Shown here in pieces: positions 11,991 through 18,404 of a DNA stretch of 64,000 bases; the first letter of the stretch is position 1; each line of letters starts with the position of its first letter. The position numbers were made by a program, and so were the translations under genes. The notes below the pieces were generated by a model, which was not told the DNA's origin, did not search any database, and saw only the letters and a list, made by a program, of their open reading frames with translations. Source of the stretch: Pantoea sp. Ep11b (lineage in GTDB: Bacteria > Pseudomonadota > Gammaproteobacteria > Enterobacterales > Enterobacteriaceae); contig NZ_CP160632.1 of NCBI RefSeq assembly GCF_040783975.1, positions 67,108 through 131,107 of the forward strand, given 5' to 3'.

Positions 11991-13027
11991 GATAACCACT
12001 GTAGCGAGTAGTCCAGTCCGGCGGCGTAAGGGATCCCCGAGGGCCTTTTCATCGACGCCGGTATCATAATGCACCAGATATTTACTGTAGCGAGTGCCCT
12101 TTTATATGAGCCTGCATGTGGAAGGTATTGCGTAATATCAGCACCGAGCGACAGCGTGTCAGCCTCTGTGCATCGGTTCTGGCAGCCTGAGGACTGATCG
12201 TCAGCTAAGCTTCTCGTTTTGATAACCACTATAGCGAGAACACCGGAAACGACCGGCACATGCGGCGGTAACGGGCACATCGTCCCCTCGGCGGGCGATT
12301 AAAGCGTGTATTACGGAGCCACTCCGGGTGTCCGGCATTATCCGGACTGGCATCAGACCCGTTACGGTTAACCACTGTAGCGAGTAGTGCTATATCAGCA
12401 AAAGAAGGTGACAGTCTGTGAAAAAACGATGACACAGGCCCTGAAATGATAGTAAGTGCTTACATTTATAGGTAAGAGGCTGCTGCAATCACAGCGATCG
12501 CATGATAACAACCACTATGGTGAGTAAACTGCGCTTTTCTGTTCTCATCTGATAACCACTGTAGCGAGAACGTTTACTCTGCCAGCACGATAATCCGTGC
12601 AGTAAACAGGCGATTGGTCGGAAAAGTGAGCGGGTAACCACTATAGCGAGTTAATCATGGGACAGGAATGAGGGCTTCAGATGCTCTGACAGAGCAGATA
12701 ACCACTATAGCGAGTTTATCCGGACGAGCACAGGCTCCTTTGTGCCCCTGTGGACCGCAAAACGCACCGCATCAGCCTCGCCGCAATCCCATGAAAAGAG
12801 AAAATAACCACTGTAGCGAGTAAACAGCAGAGGTTTCCAGACCGTCAACCCTGCAGATAGCCGTGAGTAACCACTGTAGCGAGTAAAATTCTCGCCCCAT
12901 CCTGTCGATCAGGATAACGGATGAGCCGCAGTGTGACGGGGATACAGAGATCGACGACAGTAAGCTCAGGAGACAACGCTTCAGAGGTAACCACTGTGGC
13001 GAGTAACCTGACTCGCTACAGTGGTTG
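11991..13027 (+). repeat. Dispersed iteron field downstream of repA
   Basis: At least eleven copies of TAACCACTRTAGCGAGTA in the plus orientation start near 11991, 12079 (truncated), 12221, 12367, 12507, 12551, 12633, 12697, 12803, 12867 and 12987, plus one inverted copy at 13011-13027 that forms a near-palindrome with the last. Spacing is irregular (44-146 bases), unlike the arrays upstream of repA. RepFIB replicons carry RepA-binding iterons on both sides of repA, those downstream contributing to copy control. No credible gene lies in this kilobase. Confidence 0.92.
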
Positions 13028-13069: not shown

Positions 13070-14140
13070 TTACAGCTTCTTTTGCTTACGGATCTTGTTC
13101 AGTAACTCTATTTCCTCGCGCGAAACCATAACCAGCTCACTGCTTTCCTCTGCGAGCAGCGGTTCAGGCAGGCTGACGTCAATCACGTCGGGATCGATAT
13201 CCAGATCGTCAAACTCATCCATCTCATCATCGATCAGGCCCGACTTGCTGAGCGGCAGTTCGGCCGGGCGCAGCTTTGGATGGCGATAGTGGACCCAGAA
13301 GTAAACTGACGAGCCGCGACGCGTTTCGGTGTAGTCGAGATAACCAATCTCTTTTAACTGCTCCATGGCCTTTCTGACGGTGGCATTCTGGGTGATCACG
13401 CGCGAGGTCAGATTAAGCCGGGCGCGCAGACGCGCCATGGAGATCGGCGCCGGTTTTGGCGGCAGGCTTTCGATAAAGGTGTAGAGCGCCTGAGCAGACT
13501 CTTTGCGTGCCAGCTCATTGATGGCTTTCAGCTGCAGCAGAACCTTTCTGTCGAACTGATAGAGTTCAAAGATCTTGGGATCGGCCTGCAGCGTGACCGT
13601 ATCCTTTTTAATGCTGTATTTGGCCGACTGCACCAGGTGCGTGGTGTAGTTTTCGCCGCCTTTGCTGGTAAACGTCAGGGTATTGGAGGCGATGCGCGTC
13701 AGCGACGCATCCAGACGGCTCCTGAGCTTCGAGGAGAGCCGCGCAGAGGGTATACCGCAGAGTTTGGCAAACTCAACGAATGAGAGCGTTACCGTGTCTC
13801 CCAGACACTCATGCGTGGCAAATGCCCGAATGATCCCCACCCAGGTTTTAAAGTCGTTATCCATATCCAGCCGCGCACCCAGAATCTTGATGTTGTCATA
13901 GCCTTCAGACCTGACCAGGGATAACTGTTTCAGATCCTGGGTCACGTCCATGGCGTTCATCTGGTTTTTCTGACTGCGAGCGGTGGATTTAAGCGTAGGA
14001 ACAAACAGGCCGAGTCGCATCAATGCAACCGGCTGCACGGTGTTATTACTGTTGGGAGTCAGCGTAACAACCTCCCCCGTGCGTTTATCAGTTTCGCTAA
14101 ACGCATCCGCTATGTTCAGGATATCTGGTTCTTTTCTTGG
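13070..14140 (-). CDS. repA: RepFIB-type replication initiator RepA
   Basis: Plasmid replication initiator that binds iterons and opens the origin. The protein (356 residues from the ATG at 14140) matches F-plasmid RepFIB RepA over most of its length: [20 protein letters not shown], then [57 protein letters not shown] and [13 protein letters not shown]. These cover the two winged-helix domains of the Rep_3 class. An acidic C-terminal stretch ([15 protein letters not shown]) extends beyond the F protein. The alternative start at 14206 would run into the promoter-proximal iterons, so 14140 is preferred; no Shine-Dalgarno is visible. Iterons immediately upstream imply autoregulation by RepA. Confidence 0.95.
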
Positions 14141-14182
14141 CATGGGGAAGATCCGTGATGTGAACAGACAAAAGCCGCCGCT

Positions 14183-14285
14183 ACTCGATACAGTGGATAC
14201 TATCACTCACTATAGCGGTTAATCTACTTGCCATAGTGGTTAATTGTCTCGCTACAGTGGATGTTTTGCTCGCTATAGTGGTTAG
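14183..14285 (-). repeat. Origin module A: five phased iterons
   Basis: Five copies of the iteron (plus-strand form ACTCGCTATAGTGGTTA with variants) begin at 14183, 14205, 14225, 14247 and 14268. The period is 20-22 bases, about two helical turns. The orientation is opposite to the downstream field and reads in the repA direction. The copies nearest repA are the most diverged. Confidence 0.92.
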
Positions 14286-14331
14286 TCACATGTCCCGAAG
14301 GCAGGCATACCAGTGCCTCGCGGCTGCCGGG

Positions 14332-14393
14332 GATCTCTCAGGAACTTTCAGGGATCTTATGAGGATCGATGATTGGATCGATTCAGTGGATAA
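14332..14393. other. Origin module A: GATC array and DnaA-box-like site
   Basis: Dam sites at 14332, 14353, 14364 and 14376 (steps of 21, 11 and 12) are followed by AGTGGATAA at 14385-14393, one mismatch from the DnaA box TGTGGATAA. The arrangement resembles the unwinding region of P1-type origins. Confidence 0.7.
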
Positions 14394-14528
14394 CCCGACA
14401 TATTTGGCTGAAAACTGCGCATCTTTCTGACACGCCAGGTTCTGTCAATAGCCGTTCTCCTGAACGGCCCTCTGAAAGTACCCACACAGCCCCTGACAGA
14501 AGCTTTTCCACACGCTGAAAGGCCATTT

Positions 14529-14631
14529 ACTCGCTACAGTGGTTATCCGTCACTCGCCAGCGCGGTTGCTTTTCTCGCTACAGTGGTTGTTACACTCGCT
14601 ACAGTGGTTTTTCTTCTCGCTATAGTGGTTA
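14529..14631 (-). repeat. Origin module B: five phased iterons
   Basis: Five copies begin at 14529, 14552, 14573, 14594 and 14615, with period 21-23 bases. The orientation is the same as module A. The second copy (ACTCGCCAGCGCGGTTG) is degenerate; the others are close to consensus. Confidence 0.92.
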
Positions 14632-14678
14632 CGGATCCCCTCTCAGGCGTGATGTGACAAGGCCTGGGACACTGCGGG

Positions 14679-14742
14679 GATCTGTTTAGGATCTCAGTTT
14701 GATCTATTAAGGATCGAACAATTGGATCTGGCCTGTGGATAA
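14679..14742. other. Origin module B: probable oriV with phased GATC array and perfect DnaA box
   Basis: GATC sites at 14679, 14690, 14701, 14712 and 14725 (steps of 11, 11, 11 and 13) lie in AT-rich 11-mers, followed by a perfect DnaA box TGTGGATAA at 14734-14742. It sits 47 bases from iteron array B, the same distance as in module A. Confidence 0.8.
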
Positions 14743-15003
14743 CGGGGATAAAAACCAGACGTTAAAAATGAACCACAGAAGCAACCCCTCTCACAGGGCC
14801 TGCAGAAAACAGTCTGACAGGAGAGAAACGGGTAATTTTGTAAAGAGGCTAAAACAGTTGATAACGATGAGTGTGCCAGGCATCTGCCACAGTATTCTCA
14901 CTAAACAGAAACAGGGCGTTAAACAGAAATCGTGCGCGTTTTCATTTTTTCCACCATGAAAATAATTTCATAACTAATTGATTTTAATAATTAAAATTAT
15001 ATA

Positions 15004-15031
15004 TTTTCATGATGAAAACACCCTCGGGAAA
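15004..15031 (+). repeat. Near-palindrome repeat, copy 1
   Basis: Palindrome TTTTCAT-G-ATGAAAA followed by CACCCTCGGGAAA. It matches copy 2 at 15935-15962 in 24 of 28 positions. Confidence 0.7.
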
Positions 15032-15934
15032 CGTTATTTCTGCCTCTGTTTGTAACGGTTAATGAACAAAAATCAGAAATGCACAAGGGATGGTGCTTTT
15101 ATCCCTGCAAAAGATCAGAGATATCAGAAAGTAACAGAAGATACGATTGCCAGTATTTATCCGGGTGCAGAGCATAGCCGCGTTTCGAACAGGTAAATCA
15201 GTGATGGCTGTTAATAATTCAGAACGCTCCATAGCGGGATTAACCATGGCAACCCATCTGAGCATCAGCAGAAATTCACAGAATTGAGCACAGACGAGCA
15301 TCGCACTATCAGAAAAGTATGACGGTCCAGATTTGTAAGTCTCAGACACCGCCTCTCTGAAAAGCCGCTGACACCACAATCTGGCCACCTGAAAAATAAC
15401 ACTTGCGCTGAAAGTATCGTCATCAATCTGAGTAGTGCTTAAATCGAATCGTTGCACTGAATGCCAGCAGGAAGTGAACTGACCCTTTTTCATGCACAAA
15501 GAAGTTTTGTGCAAACATTCCCTTCCCTGCCTTTAAATCGATTGATTGAATTTAACGACTATCACCATAGTGAATACGGGTCTGGCTGAGTGGCACCATG
15601 ATTCTTGTCGGAGAGGCAGTTCTGTGCGTTCTGAACAGGGAAGTATTGCTGAGGTGGGAGCAGGAGCAGATTACGATAACAATCTCTGTAAGCCTCAGGC
15701 TTTTTACGCGCTCATCTGACCAGGCTTGTCGTGATACCTCTGTAAAATAGATTGTCCACGTCTGCTGACAGTATTTAATCCGGTATTTTGAACGGCAGAT
15801 GCAGATAAGACTCAGACACCCTATCCATGCTAACGGAATAATTAAACTGACGCCTGTGACCCGATAATTTCAGACAGATTTTTCACCAGCCCTTTTCTCT
15901 TTCAATGTACTGATTTTATTGGTTTTTTATGAAA

Positions 15935-15962
15935 TTTTCATGCTGAAAACACCATCAGAAAA
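15935..15962 (+). repeat. Near-palindrome repeat, copy 2
   Basis: TTTTCATGCTGAAAACACC followed by ATCAGAAAA. It is the second copy of the element at 15004, about 270 bases upstream of parA. Confidence 0.7.
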
Positions 15963-16233
15963 ACCTGTATGATACAGGCAGGAAGCTCACCGGGCATAAT
16001 ACCTCTTTCTGCGTAAAATCAGTTCCGCCATCTGCACAGTCATCGCTTTGCAGTTATTACTGTTTATGTTTTTAAAGCATAGACAATGCATGTACCCAGT
16101 TACTCTTCTCTAATCCTTCAGGTAATCCGCTTCACTCTGTGATAAAAAATCCAGGTTTTTAGCTTTTTTCTAAAAAATTGGCAGGTCGCTGCTTTTTGTG
16201 TAGTATGCCAAAAACATTAAGAAAGAGGGGCTT

Positions 16234-17436
16234 ATGAAGCGTGATTATGGCGGAGTGCTGGAGATGGCAACCCGTGCCAACTCCATGTTGCATGGACTCA
16301 GCGATCATATTGAGCAGCAGCGTCAGGAGTTTAACCAGACCGGCTTTTATCAGACCTTTTCCCGCAACGCGGTCGCCAATATGCCACTGCTGAGCAAGCA
16401 TGCCGTAGTTGCTGCGATCAGCGATATGGAAGCCGCAGGCTATCAGTTCGGTAAAAAACAGACCGGCAGCACGTCACAATATGCATTGACCATTCAGAAC
16501 GTGGTCGACATCTATCAGCATCGTAAAGTCCCTAAATATCGTGACCGTCACGATGGTCCTTTTGTCGTGTTTGTGGTCAGCCTTAAAGGTGGCGTGTCTA
16601 AAACCGTCAGTACGGTTACCCTTGCGCACGGCATGCGCGCCCACCCTTCTATGCTGCACAACGACCTGCGCATCCTGGTTATCGACCTCGATCCTCAGGC
16701 GTCCAGCACCATGTTTCTGAGCCACACCAACAGCGTCGGTTCCGTACTCGAAACCGCCGCGCAGGCGATGCTGAACGACCTGGATGCCGATCAGCTGCGT
16801 GAGCAGTTTATCAAGCCGACCGTGATGCCTGGCGTGGATGTGATCCCGGCTTCGATTGACGACGGTTTTGTGGCAAGCGACTGGGAAGAGCTGGTTGCTG
16901 AACATCTGCCTGGCGTGGCACCTTCAGAGGTATTACGCCGCAACGTAATCGACCGTCTGGCGGGTGACTATGACTTCATCTTCCTGGACACCGGCCCCCA
17001 CCTCGACTCTTTTATGCTGAATGCAATTGCAGCCAGTGACGTCCTGCTGACACCAACGCCCCCGGCGCAGGTCGATTTCCATTCCACTATGAAGTATCTG
17101 ACCCGCCTGCCGGAGATGCTGGAGCGGATCGAATCTGAAGGCGTCGAACCACGCCTCAAGGCAAATATCGGCTTCATGTCCAAGATGACCTCCAAGCACG
17201 ATCATCTGACTTCCCAGAGCTATGCGCGTGAGGTCTTTACCAAATCGATGCTGGACTGCGGTTTACCGCGCCTGGATGGATTCGAGCGCTGTGGCGAGTC
17301 TTTTGATACCGTCATCAGCGCTAACCCGGCCTCGTATCCGGGCAGTGCAGACGCGCTGCGCAAAGCCAAACATGAAGCCGAGCAGTTCTCCAGGGCTGTT
17401 TTTGACCGAATCGAATATATCAGGAGTACCCTGTGA
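16234..17436 (+). CDS. parA: P1-type plasmid partition ATPase ParA
   Basis: Type Ia partition ATPase of 400 residues that moves plasmid copies over the nucleoid and represses its own promoter. The N-terminal 110 residues form the DNA-binding extension with a helix-turn-helix (LSKHAVVAAISDMEAAGYQF). The deviant Walker A motif KGGVSKT follows at about 118-124, then VIDLDPQASST (Walker A') and FIFLDTGPHLD (Walker B). AGAGGGG lies 6-7 bases before the ATG. The stop overlaps the parB start by 4 bases (GTGA), so the pair is translationally coupled. Confidence 0.97.
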   Translation: MKRDYGGVLEMATRANSMLHGLSDHIEQQRQEFNQTGFYQTFSRNAVANMPLLSKHAVVAAISDMEAAGYQFGKKQTGSTSQYALTIQNVVDIYQHRKVPKYRDRHDGPFVVFVVSLKGGVSKTVSTVTLAHGMRAHPSMLHNDLRILVIDLDPQASSTMFLSHTNSVGSVLETAAQAMLNDLDADQLREQFIKPTVMPGVDVIPASIDDGFVASDWEELVAEHLPGVAPSEVLRRNVIDRLAGDYDFIFLDTGPHLDSFMLNAIAASDVLLTPTPPAQVDFHSTMKYLTRLPEMLERIESEGVEPRLKANIGFMSKMTSKHDHLTSQSYAREVFTKSMLDCGLPRLDGFERCGESFDTVISANPASYPGSADALRKAKHEAEQFSRAVFDRIEYIRSTL

Positions 17437-18404
17437 GCAAACCTATACAGCGTATCGGCCGTAAATTCGGGGACTCGGCTATCGCCAGCATGATAGACAG
17501 CAGCAGCCAGTCACGCACCTTTACGCTGAAGTCGGGTGCCAAAGCGACCTTTGTCCGTCAGCTGATCCCGCATGATGATATTGCCACCCGAACCAGCGTT
17601 GATCCCGGTATCAACGGACGCGACCAGCGCACGCTGACGCCAGAGTCGCTGCAGGAGATCACCCGTACCATTACGCTGCAGCAGTTTTTCCCGGCTATCG
17701 GTCGCGTCAACGGAAACCAGATTGAGATCATGGATGGCTCACGCCGCCGCGCCGCCTGTATGCTTTCCGGCGCCAGTCTGGAAGTGCTGGTGACGGCGGA
17801 TGCGCTGAGTCTCAGCGATGCGCGTCAGCTGGCCGCTGATATTCAGACGGCAAAAGAGCACAACCTGCGCGAGCTGGGGCTGCGCTTCAAGCTGATGTAC
17901 GATAATGGCATGAGCAAAAGCGAGATCGCCAAAGCAGAGGGGATCTCCAATGCCAAAGTTTCCCGCGCGTTCCAGGCCGCCGCCGTTCCCGCCGAATTTA
18001 TTGAGCTGTTCCCGGTCGTCTCTGAACTGACCCTGCAGGACTATCAGCTGCTGCTTGACGTATCGGAAGAGGCGAAAGCGGAGGCGATGGACATCAGCGA
18101 ACTGGTCGATCAGATCCGTCACAGGCTGGATGATGATGCGGCCCTGCAAAGGGCCAGTCTGGATGAGAAGAAAGGCGTTATTCTGAACGGATTCAAAACG
18201 GCCCGCCGTCAGTTAAAGAAGCCGGCTCCCGCCAGCAAAACGGTGACGGAAAAACTGGCCACGTTCAGCACGGCCAATACCTATGCGCGTCGCAAAACCA
18301 ATGACGAAAAGCGCACCATACAGTATGAATTCAGCCGCCTGCCAAAAGAGATAGCCGAGCAGATCGATGCCTCGATCAGACAGATACTCTCCACTGTCAA
18401 ATAA
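17433..18404 (+). CDS. parB: Plasmid partition protein ParB
   Basis: Centromere-binding partner of ParA, 323 residues, GTG start overlapping the parA stop. The ParB/RepB nucleotide-binding-like domain spans about 60-160 (TPESLQEITRTI, then the MDGSRRRAACMLSG motif, equivalent to the CTPase box GxRR). The helix-turn-helix MSKSEIAKAEGISNAKVSRAF lies at about 165-185. A basic linker and a C-terminal dimerisation region end the protein. It resembles P1 and P7 ParB in size and pairing. Its parS site was not located with confidence. Confidence 0.95.
   Translation: MSKPIQRIGRKFGDSAIASMIDSSSQSRTFTLKSGAKATFVRQLIPHDDIATRTSVDPGINGRDQRTLTPESLQEITRTITLQQFFPAIGRVNGNQIEIMDGSRRRAACMLSGASLEVLVTADALSLSDARQLAADIQTAKEHNLRELGLRFKLMYDNGMSKSEIAKAEGISNAKVSRAFQAAAVPAEFIELFPVVSELTLQDYQLLLDVSEEAKAEAMDISELVDQIRHRLDDDAALQRASLDEKKGVILNGFKTARRQLKKPAPASKTVTEKLATFSTANTYARRKTNDEKRTIQYEFSRLPKEIAEQIDASIRQILSTVK

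Follow-up and report, generated by a model that had tools for sequence, protein, structure and literature searches.

The region upstream of the initiator gene repA carries a doubled origin of the P1/RepFIB type, with one complete module (A) proximal to the gene and another (B) distal to it. We hold, with moderate confidence, that labour is divided between the two: B would be the working origin, and A would be a P1-style repA promoter-operator that keeps origin features. The window, i.e. the whole 64,000-nucleotide stretch of DNA analysed, comprises bases 67108–131107 of a 131,107-bp Pantoea contig, and the genome consists of two contigs. The closest named relatives are Pantoea plasmids, including those of P. 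deleyi and P. vagans C9-1 (NC_014561); the best matches are 131–211 kb in size.

RepA is a 357-residue RepFIB/P1-like replication initiator encoded on the minus strand (13070..14143). It matches Pfam PF01051 (Rep3_N) with 46.8 bits (cut-off 22.4), which places it in the Rep_3 family. It is 62% identical to the RepFIB protein of the F plasmid (L082) over the best tblastn stretch and 49% identical to P1 RepA over residues 28–295. An Rfam search gave no match, and no solved structures were found by sequence. Iterons flank the gene on both sides: ten lie upstream, and ten inverted copies plus one facing copy lie downstream.

Modules A and B contain the same elements in the same order. The five plus-strand iterons of A (14183..14284; cores at 14184, 14206, 14227, 14248, and 14269) are spaced at steps of 22-21-21-21, and those of B (14529..14631; cores at 14530, 14553, 14574, 14595, and 14616) at steps of 23-21-21-21, so that the offsets from A to B are 346, 347, 347, 347, and 347. 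The GATC (Dam) array of B (14679..14728) has five sites, at 14679, 14690, 14701, 14712, and 14725. That of A (14332..14379) has four, at 14332, 14353, 14364, and 14376, with GAAC where B has GATC at 14690; paired sites are offset by 347–349. A minus-strand DnaA box closes each module, at an offset of 349. Judged by the DnaA consensus TTWTNCACA, the box of B (TTATCCACA, 14734..14742) is perfect, and that of A (TTATCCACT, 14385..14393) has one mismatch. A preliminary description had proposed two complete modules (14183–14393 and 14529–14742) at a constant offset of 346–349, with a perfect box in B and an imperfect one in A, and the elements are indeed found at these places. The steps of about 11 bases that it gave for the GATC sites hold for B, whereas A is not a clean ladder, being one rung short. 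Likewise, it is correct that A contains diverged iterons, but so does B: its second iteron (14553–14567) has four mismatches to the core. Most columns of this iteron are invariant in 11 aligned Pantoea loci, and it is perhaps a weak RepA site kept on purpose.

Two further elements distinguish the modules. A plus-strand DnaA box (TTTTCCACA, 14504..14512), which fits the relaxed consensus, starts 26 nt ahead of the first iteron core of B and faces the box at 14734; B is thus bounded by convergent boxes. A box is found at this position in 10 of the 11 Pantoea loci (the exception is L030). Boxes like it start 26–36 nt before the iterons in several single F-type modules, and in L032–L038 a similar box lies 26 nt ahead of the proximal module. 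In A, an extended −10 motif on the minus strand (TGATAGTAT, 14197..14205) spans the junction of iterons 1 and 2, 54–62 nt before the repA start. Motif counts in relatives and the annotation of P1 suggest that it is a putative repA promoter. If it is one, it would correspond to the P1-type rep promoter inside the iteron block. It has no good −35 element and was not reported by a sigma-70 consensus promoter scan of the region.

The likeness of A and B is far above chance. A global alignment gives 148 identities in 210 positions (70%) and a score of 61, which is 16 standard deviations above the scores obtained with shuffled B (n = 1000; mean −35.2, sd 5.9, largest −13). The stretch from 14144 to 16233 reaches 5 GATC in 60 bp and contains 11 15-mers that resemble iterons (four mismatches or fewer). 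In dinucleotide shuffles of the same stretch (n = 500), the GATC maximum was 4, and iterons averaged 0.2 (largest 3). The suggestion that A and B are more alike than any two iteron origins stands only in part. Their 70% exceeds the identity of either module to all of 39 single modules (A, median 62%, maximum 68%; B, median 61%, maximum 67%), but A is as close to the distal modules of some relatives (up to 72%) as to B. The median identity of proximal and distal modules is 68% within a plasmid (39 pairs) and 65% between plasmids (392 sampled pairs). Therefore, the likeness may come partly from the iteron specificity shared by modules that serve one RepA.

To describe the distribution of the pair, 106 loci were scored, the window included. 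A RepA match was found in 121 entries (counting the window), from which 6 duplicates and 9 entries with less than 600 nt upstream were removed. Two full modules are present in 41 loci, a full distal module with proximal iterons in 15, one module in 39, and none in 11, L102 being among the last merely through an indexing fault at the contig start; the share of double origins is inflated, because the loci were chosen for likeness to the RepA of the window (best 80 of 130). L016 and L029 were scored by profile as having proximal iterons only, yet they have three and four GATC in the proximal region. Of 117 upstream stretches searched with the profile, 113 contained a module or part of one. The E-values of this search are not independent tests, because B alone served to start the profile but matches to both modules were used to rebuild it.

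Full pairs occur in Pantoea, Erwinia, Rahnella, Kluyvera, Buttiauxella, Cedecea, Enterobacter, Xenorhabdus, and Morganella, as well as in the phage-plasmid SSU5 (L124, outside the 106). Partial pairs include those of Cronobacter, Sodalis, and Franconibacter. The duplication is therefore not special to this plasmid, as had been supposed, but an old pair. Nor is it universal among RepFIB replicons, in line with the preliminary description: a single module is present in F and in 38 further scored loci, which include a second E. coli IncF plasmid, Kosakonia, Citrobacter, other Enterobacter, and a Pantoea group with the module adjoining rep. One module adjoining rep is also found outside the 106 in P1, JK004, phi456, and two phages with 53–55% identical Rep, as judged from profile matches to array and box, with the iterons identified by eye. 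L089, a Klebsiella IncFIB plasmid, and L105 have one module adjoining rep and two isolated iterons about 395–427 nt upstream, at the place of B in double plasmids. A search of the 72,556 PLSDB records with the 591-bp pair gave matches in 533, frequently confined to a single module; in 48 records, the match extends over 80% or more of the pair.

The two modules are not equivalent across these loci. Of the 39 full proximal modules, 30 have the extended −10 motif TGNTANNNT where iterons 1 and 2 meet; none of the 56 distal ones does. The motif is present at this junction in 10 of 15 single modules adjoining rep and in none of the 24 that lie farther away. In the last 110 nt before rep, it occurs in 46 of 56 double loci, over a background of about 0.0011 per nt. 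The motif is absent from the six Xenorhabdus and Morganella double loci in which it was sought (L041, L042, L045, L047, L049, and L050). These loci also have the spacing types swapped, indicating that the division of labour is not universal.

The GATC arrays show the opposite bias. At least four GATC within 56 bp are present in 55 of 56 distal modules versus 22 of 56 proximal ones, and at least four (in an 85-bp stretch) are present in 38 of 39 single modules. In 11 of 56 double loci, the proximal array is lost (at most one site) while the proximal iterons are still present, which corresponds to six changes of state on a quick RepA tree. We count this pattern, in which arrays are kept in distal modules and in single modules, which must work, and are repeatedly lost in proximal ones, in favour of B as the probable origin. 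The DnaA box follows the same trend: in full pairs, it is perfect by the relaxed consensus in 37 of 41 distal modules versus 7 of 41 proximal ones. It is perfect in 13 of 39 single modules. The imperfect box of A does not show that A is silent, because the boxes of single modules are often imperfect (26 of 39) and the array-adjacent box of P1 has the same mismatch.

Within Pantoea, both modules are conserved. Among the 11 Pantoea loci, the mean pairwise identity is 92% for the GATC array of B (14676–14729) and 82% for that of A (14329–14380), 96% and 94% for the respective DnaA boxes, 87% for both iteron blocks, and 63% and 56% for the middle parts. Eight of nine columns of the A box are invariant, and the box is perfect in none of these loci. 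The linker between the modules (14394..14503) reaches only 37%, and 3 of its 110 columns are invariant; the DNA past B reaches 39%. Since the modules are conserved and the linker and the DNA beyond B are not, both modules appear to be under selection. The B array is also the more weakly paired of the two (−1.25 vs −1.33 kcal/mol per step). Its identity in Pantoea and a local weak spot at about 14680 suggest that it is the likely opening region. However, duplex stability does not single out B, because the A iterons are equally weak at about 14196 and the weakest stretch, at about 14958, lies beyond B.

Comparison of modules between species indicates that the pair is ancient. The closest A–A and B–B matches between Pantoea loci are 82–88% identical, compared with 70% for A and B. 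In a careful module tree that retained 123 of the 132 modules (the other nine rows were long or duplicated), A falls in a 10-row set of Pantoea A modules, and B likewise falls with B modules (each 100/98). The pair therefore predates these species. A recent tandem duplication is rejected by the same identities and by the module trees.

A careful tree of RepA covered 84 rows, without L040, L098, L108, and further long or nearly duplicate rows, and was flagged for long branches and a split outgroup. It places the 46 double loci in one 57-row clade (96/97), which also includes one Photorhabdus single and ten singles that adjoin rep. No more than two changes of state are needed, and a single clade of all the doubles kept is not rejected (p 0.27), so that one origin of the doubling and several are both compatible with the tree. 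L108, whose RepA is 50% identical, has a double origin with only two GATC per array. Its modules group together in a quick module tree (95 SH-aLRT), and it is perhaps an independent doubling.

Iteron spacing sorts the modules into two types. Steps of 22-21-21-21 are found in 29 of 34 proximal modules, and steps of 23-21-21-21 in 43 of 48 distal ones (first step 23 in 46 of 48). P1 and all 12 singles next to rep begin with a step of 22, and 23 of the 27 remaining singles, including F, begin with one of 23. Xenorhabdus and Morganella are reversed, with a first step of 23 in 4 of 5 proximal modules and of 22 in 6 of 6 distal ones; their double origins are perhaps a separate doubling. These types could be taken as two RepFIB module kinds, a 22-step kind near rep that mostly has the promoter motif and a 23-step kind farther away that lacks it, each double plasmid having both. 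The textbook single origins would then be halves of a double ancestor (or the doubles a fusion of halves), and doubles may use both as origins. We regard this ancestry as doubtful. Spacing and promoter position are what speak for it, and the module tree speaks against it. A quick tree does place near-rep singles with proximal modules and F-type singles with distal ones, but in the careful tree all 36 remaining single modules lie on one side of a branch (99/93). The groupings of proximal modules with near-rep singles (AU p 0.078) and of distal modules with the other singles (p 0.0505) are disfavoured without being clearly rejected. Neither an all-proximal clade (p 0.32) nor an all-distal clade (p 0.28) is rejected.

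Downstream of repA lies a control region (11994..13003, minus strand) with ten irregularly spaced iterons opposite in orientation to those of A and B, a counterpart of the downstream iterons of RepFIB; a weak extra copy is present at 12080. A single plus-strand iteron (13012..13026) is oriented as in A and B and faces the iteron at 12989. These two mutually facing iterons (12989–13026) lie just past the repA stop and include the only plus-strand copy downstream of the gene. On the side of B away from repA, 1.5 kb past the module, the plus-strand genes parA (16234–17436) and parB (17433–18404) provide the partition functions of the same replicon (Pfam PF18607, PF13614, and PF08775). The intervening stretch of about 1.5 kb (14743–16233) is without a convincing gene and holds the most weakly paired site of the region. 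It also contains three sites resembling the palindrome ATTTTCATGNTGAAAAC, at 14947–14963, 15003–15019, and 15934–15950. The search of the window with at most three mismatches gave six rows versus 0.41 expected, one site being listed on both strands and two weak ones lying elsewhere. The ATTTTCATGNTGAAAAC-like sites are candidate centromere or par operator sites.

In the division of labour that we favour, RepA would occupy the five iterons of B and DnaA the boxes at both of its ends. SeqA sequesters hemimethylated origin DNA. Works cited in PMC5043065 and PMC2865523 report that P1 replication requires methylated DNA and deal with how the position of the DnaA box affects the direction and copy number of P1. 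The five-site GATC array of B would open when methylated and would be sequestered by SeqA while hemimethylated. Because the A iterons straddle the putative repA promoter, RepA presumably represses its own synthesis at A. The GATC array and the imperfect DnaA box of A probably make repA transcription follow the same cycle of methylation and DnaA as B, normally without initiation. The ten inverted iterons downstream of repA would titrate RepA and handcuff A and B. Such a split would explain why proximal modules lose GATC and keep their iterons and why distal modules lack the promoter motif. Binding, repression, firing, and sequestration are deduced here from the anatomy, conservation, distribution, and asymmetry that were observed directly. 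The preliminary description had offered one active and one silenced origin as a possibility. "Silenced" is too simple a term for a module whose array and box are conserved in Pantoea and whose promoter motif is absent from distal modules.

The conservation of the array and box of A in Pantoea could also mean that A fires. Both modules would then open and load helicase, alternately or at different levels of RepA or DnaA, at initiation sites 350 bp apart that are served by one initiator. A has every kind of element at a spacing nearly identical to that of B, its array (82%) and box (94%) are conserved while the linker is not, and neither P1 nor 26 of the 39 single modules have a perfect box beside the array. 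This is possible, although we do not think it the likely account, given that at least four GATC are kept in 22 of 56 proximal modules versus 55 of 56 distal ones, that the proximal array was lost in 11 of 56 double loci through six changes of state, and that transcription from the motif in A would begin inside the module. The roles could instead be reversed, with A as the main origin, as in P1 and the near-rep singles, and B as an extra site for handcuffing or titration. P1, JK004, phi456, and the two phages indeed have their one module next to rep, and twelve single modules start at the place of A or within a few bases of it. We consider this unlikely, since B is the better conserved and more complete module and retains an array and boxes, yet handcuffing would need iterons alone.

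The repeated loss of proximal GATC elements in relatives would also fit a decaying leftover of a duplication, with function limited to RepA-binding iterons. This is more unlikely still, as A in Pantoea is conserved far above the linker and has a conserved promoter motif. A fortuitous or assembly-made repeat has nothing in its favour beyond the repetitive sequence. It is scarcely credible and was rejected, because the pair is present in assemblies of many species and the 48 of 72,556 plasmid records mentioned above match at least 80% of the 591-bp pair.

The doubled origin is a variant of the known P1/RepFIB origin and is common to many related plasmids. In P1, the repA promoter lies within the origin iterons, which makes it difficult to tell what serves the origin from what controls the initiator. 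In the doubled origins of many species and of a phage-plasmid, the two jobs seem to be split between copies 350 bp apart. They thus offer a means of finding out which elements are required for the start of replication and which serve only to control the initiator, and whether SeqA and Dam affect the synthesis of the initiator in addition to the origin. Since the upstream RepA-binding sites are doubled, the pair may also bear on plasmid incompatibility.

A search of titles and abstract openings in the open PMC literature, with older RepFIB papers outside its scope, gave no account of two upstream modules in a RepFIB-like replicon. The word "iteron" is absent from the main text of PMC3505739 (LPP-1) and PMC10425158 (pPATH). 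The F-type RepFIB replicon (F; pO157 and P307 from PMC11983097) has a homologous RepA and a DnaA box, a GATC array, and five iterons upstream of rep and, in the available text of PMC11983097, further iterons downstream of rep, as here. According to the same text, FIB replicons are believed to be regulated by the handcuffing of upstream to downstream iterons; the downstream block displaced an FIB plasmid by itself, which the upstream block failed to do. The F plasmid and the scored relatives nearest to it each have a single upstream module, which starts at least 105 nt from the rep start as inferred by alignment, without the extended −10 motif at the first iteron junction. Because it has two upstream modules and not one, the replicon of the window is named a RepFIB-like, doubled variant.

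The P1/P7 origin has the same order of elements (DnaA box or boxes, GATC at steps of about 11 bp, and five iterons) as both modules, A being one rung short, and is likewise accompanied by iterons in incC and, downstream, in incA. The P1 record places the −35 and −10 elements of repA among the three rep-proximal iterons, with the −10 where the last two of these meet, the counterpart of the junction in A. The imperfect DnaA box of A equals the array-adjacent box of P1. Unlike the window, P1 has one module, beside which lies a second, perfect DnaA box that A does not have. The available text of PMC5043065 states that DnaA opens the P1 origin and that RepA helps greatly.

SSU5 and the similar-sized plasmids p.CT29-P1 and pMB2617_2 have the doubled arrangement upstream of rep, as here, with several proximal GATC replaced by GGTC or GTTC. 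In p.CT29-P1 and pMB2617_2, the DnaA box of the proximal module matches the relaxed consensus, as does that of the distal one. R6K also has several origins served by one initiator, but those origins differ in structure, whereas the origin described here consists of two near-copies of one complete module in tandem.
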